Part shown: piece after piece, positions 1,956-10,007 of the stretch | Layout of the letters: every line of letters begins with the position of its first letter | Numbering within the stretch: position 1 is the stretch's first letter | Origin: Candidatus Hydrogenedentota bacterium | Lineage (GTDB): Bacteria; UBA8481; J006 | Direction: 5' to 3' | DNA length: 64,000 nt | NCBI GenBank assembly: GCA_003697085.1 | Contig: RFFU01000084.1 | Span: forward strand, 1 to 64,000 | Position numbers and translations under genes: made by a program | The notes under the pieces: model-generated | What the model saw: only the letters and a program-made list of their open reading frames with translations | What the model was told of the DNA's origin: nothing | Databases searched by the model: none

Positions 1956-2012
1956 GGTGTTCGAGTTCGCCGCCGGCGGACCAAGTTTCTCTTGGAATGG
2001 GAGGTGGTTCTT

Positions 2013-2528
2013 ATGGCGGAGATTCTTCAAAAATTGATTCCGTGGCGGAGAAAGAGGGAGATACCGGTGCGCAGGGAAGAAACCGAGGAGGCGCTCGGTG
2101 CGTGGAGTTTGAACCTTTACCGCGATCTTCAGAATCTCTTCGATTCCTTATGGGAGGCGCCGTTTTCCCTCGGTTCCGCGTTTCGCCCGTTGAGAGAGTT
2201 TTCCTTTCCGAAGGTGGACCTTGAGGAGCGCGACGACGCCTATCTTCTTCGAGCCGAGATTCCGGGGGTGACAGAGAAGGAGATCGACGTCAGCGTCTCC
2301 CACGATGCCGTCGTGATTCGAGGAGAGAAGGAGAGCCGCAAGGAGACGAACCGCGCGGGATTCCACTATTCGGAGAGTTACAGTGGGCGATTCGAACGGC
2401 GGATTCCTCTTCCGCGGGAAGTGGATGCCGACAAAGCGACCGCCGAGTATTCACGAGGCGTACTGACGGTGACCTTGCCGAAGACGGAGAGAAGCAAGGC
2501 GCGGCGCATTCCCCTCCTGCAATCCTGA
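2013..2528 (+). CDS. Small heat shock protein, Hsp20/alpha-crystallin family (copy 3)
   Basis: A 171-residue Hsp20 with a longer N-terminal arm that is basic near the start (WRRKREIPVRRE) and then rich in aromatic residues (LYRDLQNLFDSLWEAPF). The crystallin domain follows from about residue 65 (PKVDLEERDDAYLLRAEIPG) and ends in AEYSRGVLTVTLPK. The ATG at 2013 has GGGAGG 8 bases upstream (1999-2004); a TTG seven codons earlier lacks a site. The gene ends just before a strong intrinsic terminator, making it the last gene of the Hsp20 operon. N-terminal arms set substrate binding and oligomer size in this family, so this copy may behave differently from the first two. Confidence 0.94.
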   Translation: MAEILQKLIPWRRKREIPVRREETEEALGAWSLNLYRDLQNLFDSLWEAPFSLGSAFRPLREFSFPKVDLEERDDAYLLRAEIPGVTEKEIDVSVSHDAVVIRGEKESRKETNRAGFHYSESYSGRFERRIPLPREVDADKATAEYSRGVLTVTLPKTERSKARRIPLLQS

Positions 2529-5143: not shown

Positions 5144-7594
5144 GTGTCCCTCGCGATCCTCGGAAGGCTCTGGTTCTTGGTGTCGTCCTTTCTTCTCCTT
5201 CCGCTTGTTGCTGGAAGAGCCCAGGAACCTCAACCCGATGAAATTTTAGTGGGGCCGATCGTCCTGCGCGATGGGGATACGCTGGCTCACAAACGAATAA
5301 CGGGAGGCGAAACGACGCCCCTGGGCGCGGCGGTGCTCGTAAAAAACGGCCGGGCGTGGATAACGGACTGCGTTATTGATTCGGGACCCGGCGCGGGGAT
5401 TCTTTTGCTCAACGCCGACGTTTCTCTCGACTCCTGCATTATTCGCGGGTTCCGCGTCGGAATCTCCGCCCGCCACTCTTCGTTGAAAATCGATCGAGGG
5501 AGAATTGAGGGAAACACGGAGAGAGGTCTGGAAGCCCAGGAAGGAAGCCGCGCGGCACTTCGCTCCACCTCCGTGTTGCGGAACAAAGAGGACGGTCTCG
5601 TCGCCGGGGCCTTGAGCCAGATCGTTCTTCTTCGAACGGTATTTTCGGGGAACGGAAGAGACTCGCGGCCGATTTTCTCCAACAGCCGGATACGTCAGGG
5701 AACGGAAGAAGACTTTCAGACCTTTGAAAGGGAAGGAATGACTGCGCGAGGGACCTCTTCCTCTCAATCGACGGAGGGAGAACGGAAGGAGAGGGAGAAG
5801 GGATTCTCGATTATCGAAAGGGAATTAGCCGAACGGGGGTTCTCGACGGCGGACTTCGCCCTTCCTCGCGATACGGCATTTCATTGGCCTTCCCCGATGG
5901 CGCGAGTGATGGATTCGCCGATCGAGGGGGCCTTTGAGATGACCGCGGAAGAGGAGGAGTTTCCGAGTTGGTTCCCTTTCTTCCTGGAAACACTTCTTTC
6001 CCGGGGGCGGGAAGAGAACCTGCGACTTTTTTCAAAAGACCGTTCGGTCGCCGGCCTTTGTGCCGACTGGAGGTTCGCGATGGGCTTTGCTTCTTCGGCC
6101 GTTCGAAACATCCCGGATCTCAAGGATATCGTGGCGGCGCTGACAGAAGAAAACGCGCCGGGAACGCTTTTCGAAGAACATATTCTCGGACCGAAGGAAA
6201 GAGCGTTTACGGCCGGAGTGGAAGGAAGACTTGCGGCCATCGATACGGCCGCCGTCTCCGCCGCCGCCGCGGGTTTGATAGAGAATCTTCTGATTGAACC
6301 CATGCCTCGAGAAGAACTTTTTCAGAATATGGGAAGGACCTGCGGGATCCCCGTGTCGCCCAAAACACTTGCTTTTCGGCAAAAAAGCGCGGTGCAAATT
6401 TGGTGGATTCCGTTTTCGCGATCTAACTTTTCGGAAACCACCATCTTCGAGAACCTCTCCCGCGATCAAAGAAAAAGGGGGTTTCTGCTCGTTATCGGAG
6501 ATTCTGGATCGAACGATTACCCGGCCCTGGAAGGCGTCGATTATGTGATCTTCGATCCGGGTGGAGATGATCGGTATCACGATGCGGCCTTTGCGGAATC
6601 GAGCGTGGCTGTTGTCGTCGATCTTTCCGGAGATGACGAATACGATGGAAAAACGGCCGTGGCGCATTCCGGAATCGCGATTCTTCGCGATTCCGGTTCC
6701 GGGAAGGACCGTTACCTGGGCGCGAAAAACTCTCAGGCGGTTGCTGTTGGGGGGATCGCGGTTTTGTACGACGAAGGAGGAAATGATCTCTACCGGAGCC
6801 GGGAGGTGTCGCAAGGATTTGCCGTGGGGGGAACGGCCGTTTTGCTGGAAAGCGGCGGAGATGATCGATACGAGGCAGGAGCGTTTTCGCAGGGTGTCGG
6901 AGGACCTGGCGGCAGAGGGTTTCTTATCGATCTGAAGGGAGAAGACCACTACGAAATCGCCTCTTCGATCAAGGACGCACTTCGTTCCGGCCGACGGAGC
7001 CTCTCGTTCGGACAAGGGTTCGGAATCGGTTTACGGCCTGGCTCGGCCGGTGGGTTTGGGGTTCTTTGGGACGCCAATGGCGATGATCACTATGAAGCGG
7101 GGCTGTTTGCGCAGGGCAGTGCTTATTGGCGAGGGGTGGGGGTACTTTACGACGGCGCGGGAGATGATCATTACGAAGCCTGGCAATATGTTCAGGGAAG
7201 CGGTGTTCATCTTTCGGCGGGAATATTGATCGATGCCGCGGGAGATGACGTTTATCATTCCTGGAGCCTTTCCCAAGGGTGTGGCCACGATCTCGCCACG
7301 GGAATCCTTCTCGACCTTTCGGGAGACGACGTCGTAACGGCCTATTCGCGCGCTCAGGGGATGGGGCTCACAAACGGAAATGGACTTTATTTTGACGGGG
7401 ATGGGGAAGATCGGTACCTCCTCGGACTTCCTTCCCAAGGGCGCGGAAGAGGTTGGTTCGAGCCGTCGGTAAGAAAGTTCGGCTCGCTTGGAATCTTCCT
7501 CGATCTCGGAGGACGGCAAGATATCTACGACGAGCCGGGGAAGAATGGAGCCGAATGGGGCGGCGGGGAAGTGGGAATCGGAGTGGATCGATGA
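5144..7594 (+). CDS. Secreted beta-helix protein with GDDxY repeats, function unknown
   Basis: About 816 residues when read from GTG 5144. That start gives a clean signal peptide (LAILGRLWFLVSSFLLLPLV, then a cleavage-like AGRAQE). The exact start is uncertain because the frame is open into the CBS gene. Residues ~30-200 look like a right-handed parallel beta-helix: repeated short strands such as GAAVLVKNGRAWITDC, GAGILLLNADVSLDSC and GLEAQEGSRAALRSTS. A middle region (~210-460) has mixed composition. From about base 6540 to 7560 there are roughly 11 repeats of ~26 residues with consensus G-D-D-x-Y-x-a-x-x-x-S-Q-G-x(5)-G-x-x-L-x-D. The Asp-rich turns suggest metal-binding beta-roll or solenoid coils, but the unit is longer than an RTX nonapeptide and I know no family for it. 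It heads an operon with the HEAT protein (ATGA overlap). Confidence 0.8.
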   Translation: MSLAILGRLWFLVSSFLLLPLVAGRAQEPQPDEILVGPIVLRDGDTLAHKRITGGETTPLGAAVLVKNGRAWITDCVIDSGPGAGILLLNADVSLDSCIIRGFRVGISARHSSLKIDRGRIEGNTERGLEAQEGSRAALRSTSVLRNKEDGLVAGALSQIVLLRTVFSGNGRDSRPIFSNSRIRQGTEEDFQTFEREGMTARGTSSSQSTEGERKEREKGFSIIERELAERGFSTADFALPRDTAFHWPSPMARVMDSPIEGAFEMTAEEEEFPSWFPFFLETLLSRGREENLRLFSKDRSVAGLCADWRFAMGFASSAVRNIPDLKDIVAALTEENAPGTLFEEHILGPKERAFTAGVEGRLAAIDTAAVSAAAAGLIENLLIEPMPREELFQNMGRTCGIPVSPKTLAFRQKSAVQIWWIPFSRSNFSETTIFENLSRDQRKRGFLLVIGDSGSNDYPALEGVDYVIFDPGGDDRYHDAAFAESSVAVVVDLSGDDEYDGKTAVAHSGIAILRDSGSGKDRYLGAKNSQAVAVGGIAVLYDEGGNDLYRSREVSQGFAVGGTAVLLESGGDDRYEAGAFSQGVGGPGGRGFLIDLKGEDHYEIASSIKDALRSGRRSLSFGQGFGIGLRPGSAGGFGVLWDANGDDHYEAGLFAQGSAYWRGVGVLYDGAGDDHYEAWQYVQGSGVHLSAGILIDAAGDDVYHSWSLSQGCGHDLATGILLDLSGDDVVTAYSRAQGMGLTNGNGLYFDGDGEDRYLLGLPSQGRGRGWFEPSVRKFGSLGIFLDLGGRQDIYDEPGKNGAEWGGGEVGIGVDR
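6540..7560 (+). repeat. Eleven tandem GDDxY protein repeats inside the 5144-7594 gene
   Basis: Each ~26-residue unit begins G-D/E/N/K-D-x-Y, has S-Q-G or A-Q-G about seven residues later, then a Gly-rich stretch and a hydrophobic strand ending x-L-x-D. Examples of the turn are GDDRYEAGAFSQG, GDDHYEAGLFAQG and GDDVYHSWSLSQG. DNA-level identity between units is low, so the array is an old structural repeat, not a recent tandem duplication. Two units carry longer insertions (about bases 6961-7050 and 7440-7500). Confidence 0.85.
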
Positions 7595-8238
7595 GCCTTC
7601 CCTTGGCCCTGTGTGTGGCGATGATGGTCAGTGGCCCGCTCTCTTCGAGTGATGTTCAGGAAGCGGTTCTGGTTCTTTCCACGGGCCGGCTCGAATATCG
7701 AGGGATGGAACGGGAAGCATTGGAGTATCTCGCGGAAGGAGGGGTACGTGTTCTGCCGGAGATCGTAGCCTTCGTGGATCCGAAGGATCCGCGCGAGGGG
7801 AGGATCCTTCGACGGGTCACGCGACGGATCGGGACCAAGGCGGTTCCCACGCTTGAAAAACTCTTGGTCGACGCGGACACGGTTTCGGAGGTTACGATGA
7901 TTCTTCCGGCGATAGGAGAAGCCGGCGGCGAAAGAGCGGTGGAGGTACTTTCCCGCTACAGAAACGATACGGAACCGCGGATACGTTTCGCCGCTTTGCT
8001 GGCGCTGGCCAAGACGAAGGAAGACACGGCTTACGTCTACCTTTCTCAAGCCTTGGGGGATGGGAAGAAGATGATTCGGCGCCTTGCGGCGGGAGCCTTG
8101 AGGGAATGGGACGCGGATACCGCTTTGCCGGAGGTCGTGAGGCGAATCGGGCAGGCCTCCTCCGACACGGACGCGTGGGTGCGGTGGAACCTTCGGAAAT
8201 GGGAGGAGAAATGGGAGAAATCGAGGACGAAGAAGTGA
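7591..8238 (+). CDS. Secreted HEAT-repeat protein
   Basis: A 215-residue helical-repeat protein. The ATG at 7591 overlaps the previous stop by four bases (ATGA) and yields a short hydrophobic leader (LPLALCVAMMVSG), suggesting export. From about residue 30 onward, helix pairs of 30-35 residues recur: AVPTLEKLLVDADTVSEVTM, ERAVEVLSRYRNDTEPRIRF with AALLALAKTKEDTA, and IRRLAAGALREWDADTALPE. These have the Arg/Asp and small-residue spacing of HEAT repeats, which serve as protein-binding scaffolds. No catalytic motif is seen. Its fixed place between the repeat protein and the sulfatase-fold enzyme suggests it links them at the cell envelope. That is inference. Confidence 0.8.
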   Translation: MSLPLALCVAMMVSGPLSSSDVQEAVLVLSTGRLEYRGMEREALEYLAEGGVRVLPEIVAFVDPKDPREGRILRRVTRRIGTKAVPTLEKLLVDADTVSEVTMILPAIGEAGGERAVEVLSRYRNDTEPRIRFAALLALAKTKEDTAYVYLSQALGDGKKMIRRLAAGALREWDADTALPEVVRRIGQASSDTDAWVRWNLRKWEEKWEKSRTKK

Positions 8239-10007
8239 CGCGAATGGAAATTTCGAAGGGGAAGTCGCGCTCGGCCTGGAAGATCGGTGTCCTACTGGGA
8301 GCCGTCGTCCTCATCGCCTCCGGCGCCTGGTGGTTCTTCCGGGTTCCGCCGCGGCCGAAAATTTCGTACTACAACGTCTTGTACTTAACCGCCGACAGTT
8401 TCAACCGCCGGCATTTGGCAATGTACGGGTATCACAGGGTGACAACACCTTATTTGGAAGAATTGGCGAAGTCTTCGGCCGTATTCGACAAGATGATCAA
8501 TCCTTCCGGGTGGACGAATGAAAATTTGGTATCGATCTTTTCTTCTCTTTCGAGCCCGATTCACCACGTGGAAACGAGAATGCGAAACATCGATCCGCGC
8601 TGGATCACTCCTATTGAAATCCTTCGCGAATACGGGTACCGGGCACCGCGTCTCCAGGGATGGCAGGGGGATCAGAATCATTCCGAACTGGGATTCGAAC
8701 CGGTGACTCCGATGCACCCCGCGGAATGGCTCGAACGGTACGGAAATTCAGGCCCCTTCTTTCTCTTTCATCAGTTTCTTCAGCCTCATCTTCCGTACAA
8801 CGGAGACGGCCGCGATACCGCACTTTTTCGCACCTTCTTTTCCGAGAGATTGTTTGCGAATCCGTCTTCCCGCGAACGCATTATGAATTCCGTCTTCCGC
8901 AACTCTATCAACAAAAAAGGGTCAGTTCGCTTTCTTCCGGAAGACGCCGAACCCATACACGCGCTTTACGACGGCGAACTTCTTCTCGTGGACCGAGAGA
9001 TGGGAAGGACAATCGAGACCCTGAAGCGATTAGGGCTTTACGAAAAAACAATTATCATCATCGGCGCGGATCATGGCGAGGAGCAGTTGGAGCACGGCTT
9101 CGTCGGTCACGCTTCAACAAGCAAGGCGGGGCATCTTTACGATGAGATCGTCAATATTCCCTTCTTGATCCATTTTCCTCCTCGGGTTCCCGCAAGATTC
9201 ATTCGCACGCAGGTGCGAGGCATCGATGTTATGCCGACGGTTCTCGATTTGCTTGGAATACCGGTTCCGGAATATCTCGAGGGCCGTTCGCTGATGCCCG
9301 TCATTCGGGGCGAAGAGACGAAAGATCGTACGGCCTTCATTCAAACGTCTCGGGCGGGGTATGGGGAACCGGATCCGAAGAACGTCACGGATCACATTCG
9401 CGCCGTGCGCACGGGAGAGTGGAAACTGATCCACTATTATTTCAAGGAGGATCCAGCGCGTTTCGAACTTTATCACGTTTCGATCGATACGATGGAGCAG
9501 AGAAACGTCATCGATTCCCATCCCGCCGTGGCGAACCGCCTTCGGCAGGAGTTGTTCGAGTGGTTGGAACGTTGTGCGGCGACGAGGCCGCCGGACCCGG
9601 ATCAATATCTTCGAAAGTCTCCCTGGCAGAAGGTTAAGGAGTGGTGGCTTCGGCCTCCGCCGAGAACGGATTTTACGGGGGTCCCCTCCCCGCCCGTCCC
9701 GCTTTCTCCTAAAAACGGTGACGTGATCACCTTTCGGACGGCGGGGGGGAAAGCGATTTTGCGGTGGAGCGGAGAGCCGGATGTTCCGTATGTGATCGAG
9801 TACGAGGTGGGAAAAGGCGACTACCATCTTACGGGAACGATGAAAGTTTTGGGCAATCGAAAGGTGTTCGGGCCGTTCCCTCGAAAATACTGGGATACTT
9901 ATCTGGCGCTCTATTCTCCGTATCGCGCCCGTGTCTCGATCGATAAAGAGCCGCGGGAATGGAGCCCCTGGGTGGAATTCGAGGTGCGACCGGTGGGAGA
10001 ACCCTAG
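8211..10007 (+). CDS. Membrane-anchored sulfatase-fold (alkaline phosphatase superfamily) enzyme
   Basis: A 598-residue protein: one N-terminal membrane segment (about 24-43, IGVLLGAVVLIASGAWWFF), then the sulfatase/alkaline-phosphatase fold, then a beta-sandwich tail (~500-598). The first metal Asp is in LTADSFNRRHLAMYGY (Asp62). The second metal site is GADHGEE (~287), followed by GHAS...LYDEIVNIPFLI. The nucleophile loop reads SGWTNENLVSIFSSL, with Thr102 where sulfatases have the modified Cys of CxPxR. By motif it is therefore not a classical formylglycine sulfatase. It is closer to phosphoglycerol/phosphoethanolamine transferases or phosphonate monoester hydrolase-like members. GGGAGG precedes ATG 8211; ATG 8199 and 8244 are alternatives. 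It overlaps the HEAT gene and touches the VanZ gene. Confidence 0.85.
   Translation: MGEIEDEEVTRMEISKGKSRSAWKIGVLLGAVVLIASGAWWFFRVPPRPKISYYNVLYLTADSFNRRHLAMYGYHRVTTPYLEELAKSSAVFDKMINPSGWTNENLVSIFSSLSSPIHHVETRMRNIDPRWITPIEILREYGYRAPRLQGWQGDQNHSELGFEPVTPMHPAEWLERYGNSGPFFLFHQFLQPHLPYNGDGRDTALFRTFFSERLFANPSSRERIMNSVFRNSINKKGSVRFLPEDAEPIHALYDGELLLVDREMGRTIETLKRLGLYEKTIIIIGADHGEEQLEHGFVGHASTSKAGHLYDEIVNIPFLIHFPPRVPARFIRTQVRGIDVMPTVLDLLGIPVPEYLEGRSLMPVIRGEETKDRTAFIQTSRAGYGEPDPKNVTDHIRAVRTGEWKLIHYYFKEDPARFELYHVSIDTMEQRNVIDSHPAVANRLRQELFEWLERCAATRPPDPDQYLRKSPWQKVKEWWLRPPPRTDFTGVPSPPVPLSPKNGDVITFRTAGGKAILRWSGEPDVPYVIEYEVGKGDYHLTGTMKVLGNRKVFGPFPRKYWDTYLALYSPYRARVSIDKEPREWSPWVEFEVRPVGEP

Follow-up and report, generated by a model that had tools for sequence, protein, structure and literature searches.

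A widespread, unnamed, predicted solenoid protein and its HEAT-repeat partner in bacteria of many phyla

The stretch of DNA analyzed here (64,000 nucleotides, referred to below as the window) contains an open reading frame on the plus strand, at positions 5144 to 7594, that begins with GTG and encodes a predicted exported protein of 816 amino acids ending in a long array of Asp-rich repeats. The question raised by this locus is what kind of protein carries such an array and what the array might do. An earlier note, made from the letters of the window, had suggested an undescribed calcium-dependent solenoid, a suggestion which is plausible and for which a comparison of folds now offers a structural precedent (PDB entry 3P4G). 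The larger point is that the protein belongs to a widespread, unnamed solenoid-HEAT pair. The HEAT-repeat partner, encoded directly downstream, was overlooked in that note, which also missed the fixed order of the coils and the residues that are invariant in one coil only.

The gene, its repeat array, and its relatives

The first 26 residues of the protein (positions 5144 to 5221, plus strand; MSLAILGRLWFLVSSFLLLPLVAGRA) read as a signal peptide, and by a simple heuristic 83 of 96 relatives likewise have a hydrophobic stretch near the N terminus; these signal peptides suggest export through Sec. A right-handed beta-helix region follows (residues 63 to 174; positions 5330 to 5665, plus strand; Pfam PF13229, 4e-9). 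It is a lineage-specific N-terminal addition, detected by Pfam also in the relatives L027 and L046, while L025, the closest relative of the window protein, has no Pfam match for it. N-terminal additions differ among the relatives and include beta-helix, PDZ, beta-propeller/PQQ, and AhpC-TSA (redoxin) domains. Common to the whole family is a helical domain that precedes the solenoid (residues ~225 to 440; positions 5816 to 6463, plus strand; alignment A3), which AlphaFold models in the relative L049 as nearly all helical (pLDDT, 84). The fold search with this domain returned no specific fold (best Z score, 6.8), and occludin and EsxB were rejected as generic helical matches. The repeat domain occupies residues 446 to 816 (positions 6479 to 7591, plus strand). 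The array does come after the beta-helix domain, as had been described, but it is not adjacent to it: about 200 residues of helical domain lie between them, and the array starts at about residue 446. It is present as a single copy in the source genome.

Self-identity of residues 441 to 816 at a lag of 27 residues was 0.22, well above the 99% shuffle maximum of 0.144, which confirms the existence of the array. The modal period is 27 residues, one more than the 26 previously given, although 26 also occurs; the successive turn-to-turn spacings are 22, 23, 27, 26, 27, 47, 27, 27, 27, 27, and 36, and one coil has an insert of ~20 residues. Rather than about eleven units, there are 12 turns of the form D-x-x-G-[DN]-D-x-Y, followed by a terminal strand with Asp at its end; the Q-G pair is clear in 7 coils. 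The units share 36% identity as protein and 46% as DNA. At identical residues, third codon positions match at a frequency of 0.40, against the 0.41 that codon usage predicts. The DNA of the units is thus saturated, and selection has kept the protein pattern, much as the earlier note had concluded from the low DNA identity.

Relatives were found in 12 of 60 genomes by sequence search and, by profile search, in 34 of 192 bacterial genomes sampled around the source genome (~18%), nearly all of different families. A scan of named genomes, relying on two short motifs alone, yielded 389 loci that encode relatives. The best 80 of these come from mostly uncultured members of the Zixibacteria, WOR-3/Stahlbacteria, Ignavibacteria, Kapaibacteria, Eisenbacteria, Fibrobacteria, TA06, Latescibacterota, Cloacimonadota, Nitrospinaceae, Planctomycetota, and other groups. 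The profile for the contig scan was built from 7 sequences, a 20-sequence profile being too diverse for that purpose, and the scan selects for motifs around H689 and H715-D716, so the conservation of both motifs in L045 to L124 is partly a product of that selection. Plasmid and phage records and viral contigs contained no relatives, and there is thus no sign that the protein is a mobile or phage part.

In nearly all relatives, the solenoid is ~350 to 405 residues long (mostly 365 to 390), a near-constancy which implies that the number of coils is fixed. Judged from the sequences of 97 members in many phyla, the solenoid is a domain of ~370 residues with a fixed coil order and not an open-ended array. 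Over 12 coils in these 97 members, the first Asp of the turn is present in 94% (Glu in 5%), the second Asp in 99.4%, and the Tyr in 97%; the turn Gly reaches 98 to 100% at most coils, and the residue just ahead of the last Asp is Asn (49%) or Asp (36%), which together account for 84%. The preservation of the pattern that had been noticed in one protein therefore extends across phyla, with turn residues conserved at 94 to 99%.

The array had no match among the Pfam, NCBIfam, or PHROG models, and stray hits to DUF6897, DUF6329, AAA_assoc_2, and PCNA_N were discarded as weak and inconsistent. Single-protein and profile searches of PDB chain sequences gave nothing meaningful for the array, and no description of the motif or of the solenoid-HEAT pair was found in the open-licence literature. 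The earlier view that the repeat belongs to no known family holds for Pfam, NCBIfam, PHROGs, and the sequences of solved structures; the strong match to an existing repeat family that would have counted against it was not found in the first three.

Predicted fold and likeness to calcium-binding solenoids

AlphaFold2 (20 sequences) modeled the solenoid with pLDDT values of mostly 80 to 96, the greater part exceeding 90. By DSSP, each coil consists of a six-residue strand, a five-residue DxxGDD loop, a strand of three to four residues, and the Q-G corner, and the loops lie in the same phase in all 12 coils, in agreement with the lining up of Asp residues that the earlier note had looked for in a predicted structure. 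AlphaFold2 can produce confident yet unreal solenoids for perfect repeats (PMC11795689); unlike in that case, the repeats here are imperfect (36% identical) and the model is backed by an alignment. As modeled, the domain has 13 coils, which metal ions along one edge probably hold together. In our proposal, the C-terminal ~370 residues would form a beta-solenoid of 13 coils, each 27-residue coil contributing three short strands, and the D-x-x-G-[DN]-D turns stacked on one edge would most likely bind Ca2+ ions lined up between coils, by analogy with region IV of MpAFP.

The likeness to MpAFP rests on VIA-align and not on Foldseek, with which there was no significant match (best E value, 0.3), the top nonsignificant entries being Ca2+-binding RTX proteases and MpAFP. 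The best VIA-align match was 3p4g_A, which is MpAFP region IV (Z score, 20.7 over 260 residues; rmsd, 2.9 Å; 19% identity). The next matches had Z scores of 17.6 and 12.9; other solenoids scored 11 to 18 and other Ca2+ RTX chains ~4 to 8.5. A viral fold library returned no significant match. Parallel beta-helices (PF13229; the pectate lyase and tailspike folds) gave moderate solenoid matches with Z scores of ~8 to 12, but the repeat domain differs from these in its regular 27-residue sequence period, and PF13229 itself matched residues 63 to 174 only, with no match over the repeat domain.

MpAFP (MpIBP) region IV is an RTX-like ice-binding beta-helix of Marinomonas primoryensis. Its 19-residue repeats follow the pattern XGTGND-XUXU-GGXUXG-XUX, and their XGTGND turns bind Ca2+ along a single edge (PMC6891781, PMC3492233). 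The window solenoid resembles it in being a predicted one-sided solenoid of 12 to 13 coils, with a GND-type turn followed by an x-hydrophobic-x stretch. MpAFP is, however, part of a type I secreted adhesin and carries an array of Thr/Asx, whereas the window solenoid has 27-residue coils and an additional Asp at turn position 4, lacks a Thr array, and comes with a predicted N-terminal signal peptide and a HEAT partner. By analogy, the window coil may be the MpAFP design with a corner that is eight residues longer. RTX beta-rolls (PF00353) consist of 9-residue nonapeptides with Ca2+ on both edges and a C-terminal signal for type I secretion, compared with a period of 27 in the array, and PF00353 had no match in 20 members at E values up to 10. 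The early hydrophobic segment of most relatives, as judged by the heuristic, and the placement of the domain at or close to the C terminus in most split forms would speak against type I secretion here. The two nevertheless share a G-[ND]-D-x-hydrophobic turn and, likely, the bridging of successive coils by Ca2+. RTX turn positions 7 and 9 are kept (Gly, 98 to 100% at most coils; Asp, 99.4%), but the Gly residues at positions 4 and 5 are not: position 4 is Asp in 94%, and position 5 is Gly in 8% and mostly L, E, R, or K. With the RTX Gly5 lost, Ca2+ bound at these turns would have to adopt a geometry other than that of RTX. The period had been described as much longer than that of RTX, and it is longer, but counted per coil the comparison is 27 residues against 18 (two nonapeptides) or 19 (MpAFP). 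The resemblance of the D-x-x-G-[DN]-D-x-Y turn to the RTX turn makes the array a relative of RTX in kind rather than something foreign to it. The proposed solenoid would widen this class of Ca2+ solenoids to include coils of 27 residues and proteins that are probably exported by Sec.

It is conceivable that the Asp turns hold no metal and that Asp/Asn caps, Tyr stacking, and Gln ladders alone stabilize the solenoid, given that the Gly5 of the RTX turn is lost and that AlphaFold does not model ions. We consider this quite unlikely: each coil carries two near-invariant Asp residues and a third position that is Asp or Asn in 84%, and such turns stacked in 12 coils would create strong uncompensated charge without cations, whereas the closest solved structure (3P4G) is Ca2+ bound. 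Because the best structural match is an antifreeze domain, ice binding in the manner of MpAFP region IV was also considered. The described ice site of MpAFP is its Thr/Asx array (PMC3492233), and its ice-binding Thr corresponds to position 6 of the turn here. Thr occupies this required position in 1.5% of coils, on which ground ice binding was rejected as exceedingly improbable.

The HEAT-repeat partner

The stop codon of the solenoid gene and the start codon of the next gene overlap in ATGA (positions 7591 to 7594, plus strand; GATCGATGAGCC). The second gene (positions 7591 to 8238, plus strand) encodes a predicted exported protein of 215 amino acids that matches Pfam HEAT_2 (5e-13 on positions 7594 to 8235), its PF13646 score of 49.6 bits lying above the gathering cutoff of 27.7. 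The models for HEAT and PBS-lyase HEAT-like proteins (PF13646, PF03130) match both the partner and a C-terminal domain fused to some of the relatives, but the partner has an N-terminal motif of its own and a signal-peptide-like start that set it apart from other HEAT proteins. PADLOC reported only generic HEAT matches to the partner and nothing on the solenoid.

The C-terminal extensions of fused relatives served to build a search profile. By this profile, 58 of 76 nonfused proteins have a HEAT gene as their immediate downstream neighbor on the same strand, and no HEAT match was found elsewhere at these loci. Among 100 proteins (a few loci being duplicates), 24 are fused to a C-terminal HEAT domain; in most split forms, the solenoid domain is at or close to the C terminus. 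An NTGA overlap occurs in 23 of the 54 split loci with a partner after removal of duplicates. The state changed between fused and split at least 7 times on the tree, with 6 being the safer count because the "split" row of L120 ends at a contig end and may be an artifact. The window partner carries the motif LSTGRLEYRG, similar to that of other partners, and an N-terminal motif (SLFxxASSGExKYRxxVxPA) is common to separate partners and most fused domains, which indicates that the two forms are one protein rather than arbitrary HEAT repeats. A signal-like segment was present in 52 of 54 partners, compared with 239 of 540 control open reading frames (44%).

Not every member of the family requires the partner, since 9 of 20 proteins found without motif bias have none. 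Members with PDZ, propeller, or redoxin heads had no HEAT partner in the loci examined, so that there are apparently two subtypes. The HEAT-less proteins (L032, L034 to L039, L041, L042, L087, L093, L109, and L114) have PDZ, beta-propeller, or redoxin heads in most cases, and one genome (G035) encodes four HEAT-less paralogues.

The conserved patch, the proposed complex, and surrounding genes

Several positions are nearly invariant, each in a single coil: R631 (95%), Y661 (99%), W662 (97%), Y682 (99%), H689 (99%), H715 (94%), D716 (99%), and N744 (93%). Most belong to a coil-specific patch of R631, Y661-W662, H689, H715-D716, and N744 (positions 7034 to 7375, plus strand; 92 to 99% conserved in 97 members), which is restricted to coils 6 to 10, the same lane being variable in the other coils. 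The values for H689 and H715-D716 partly reflect the motifs used in the contig scan, but among the 20 proteins whose discovery involved no motif bias, 17 to 19 still have W662 and H689, and 19 have D716. W662, H689, and D716, which come from three successive coils, share one place, five residues past the Gln; the place just before it is taken by Y661 and H715. Equivalent residues of successive coils in a solenoid stack ~4.8 Å apart, so these residues would form one patch, which is the likely ligand site. C713 and H715 (residues 713 to 716 at positions 7280 to 7291; alignment A1) seem to covary with the HEAT partner; in the small unbiased set, H715 is present in 10 of 11 HEAT-linked and 4 of 9 HEAT-less members, which is to be taken as a lead only. 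This covariation hints that the patch meets the partner.

We hypothesize that the solenoid protein is exported through Sec and folds outside the cytoplasm, where Ca2+ is plentiful; that the HEAT protein is made alongside it by coupled translation; and that the HEAT protein (or fused HEAT domain) forms a fixed complex with the solenoid or with the helical N-terminal domain. The W662-H689-D716 lane, with Y661, H715, R631, and N744 on adjoining coils, would be the working site, at which an extracellular ligand, a glycan for example, would be bound or perhaps cleaved. That the pair is a Ca2+-stabilized exported complex whose W-H-D patch is a ligand or active site seems to us slightly more probable than the contrary. 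The fuller claim, that two exported proteins form a widespread and undescribed complex whose solenoid is laddered with Ca2+ and bears a receptor or enzyme site made up of these seven residues, is advanced tentatively, as possible rather than probable. It is also possible, if rather unlikely, that the protein is a structural spacer at the surface or in the periplasm, or an adhesin stalk, in which the Asp ladder and the patch only stabilize the fold and the HEAT protein assists in folding or assembly. Both solenoids and HEAT repeats often serve as scaffolds, and the varied N-terminal partners (beta-helix, PDZ, beta-propeller, and redoxin) are what one would see with a connector module. In a spacer, however, one would expect the number of repeats to vary, and a fixed coil number and order across phyla, together with coil-specific polar residues at 92 to 99%, exceed what a spacer needs.

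With the proposed ligand-binding solenoid-HEAT complex, several exported proteins of uncultured phyla now labeled "hypothetical" would become parts of a single complex that can be tested. An unnamed domain in about one-sixth of the sampled bacterial genomes, conserved to the residue over many phyla and furnished with a defined partner, is a clear target, and two apparently uncharacterized proteins can be tested together.

In the wider neighborhood, recurrent genes other than the HEAT gene seem to be limited to particular lineages. In the window, three genes in succession at positions 1070 to 1510, 1533 to 1955, and 1992 to 2528 (plus strand) read as small heat-shock (Hsp20-like) proteins, and the product of the gene after the HEAT gene (positions 8106 to 10007, plus strand) looks like a sulfatase-like protein anchored in the membrane. 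A gene similar to those of RNase H-like exonucleases (motif DTETTGLGG) lies near the pair at L094 (positions 5151 to 5918) and at 14 other loci, mostly in Zixibacteria.
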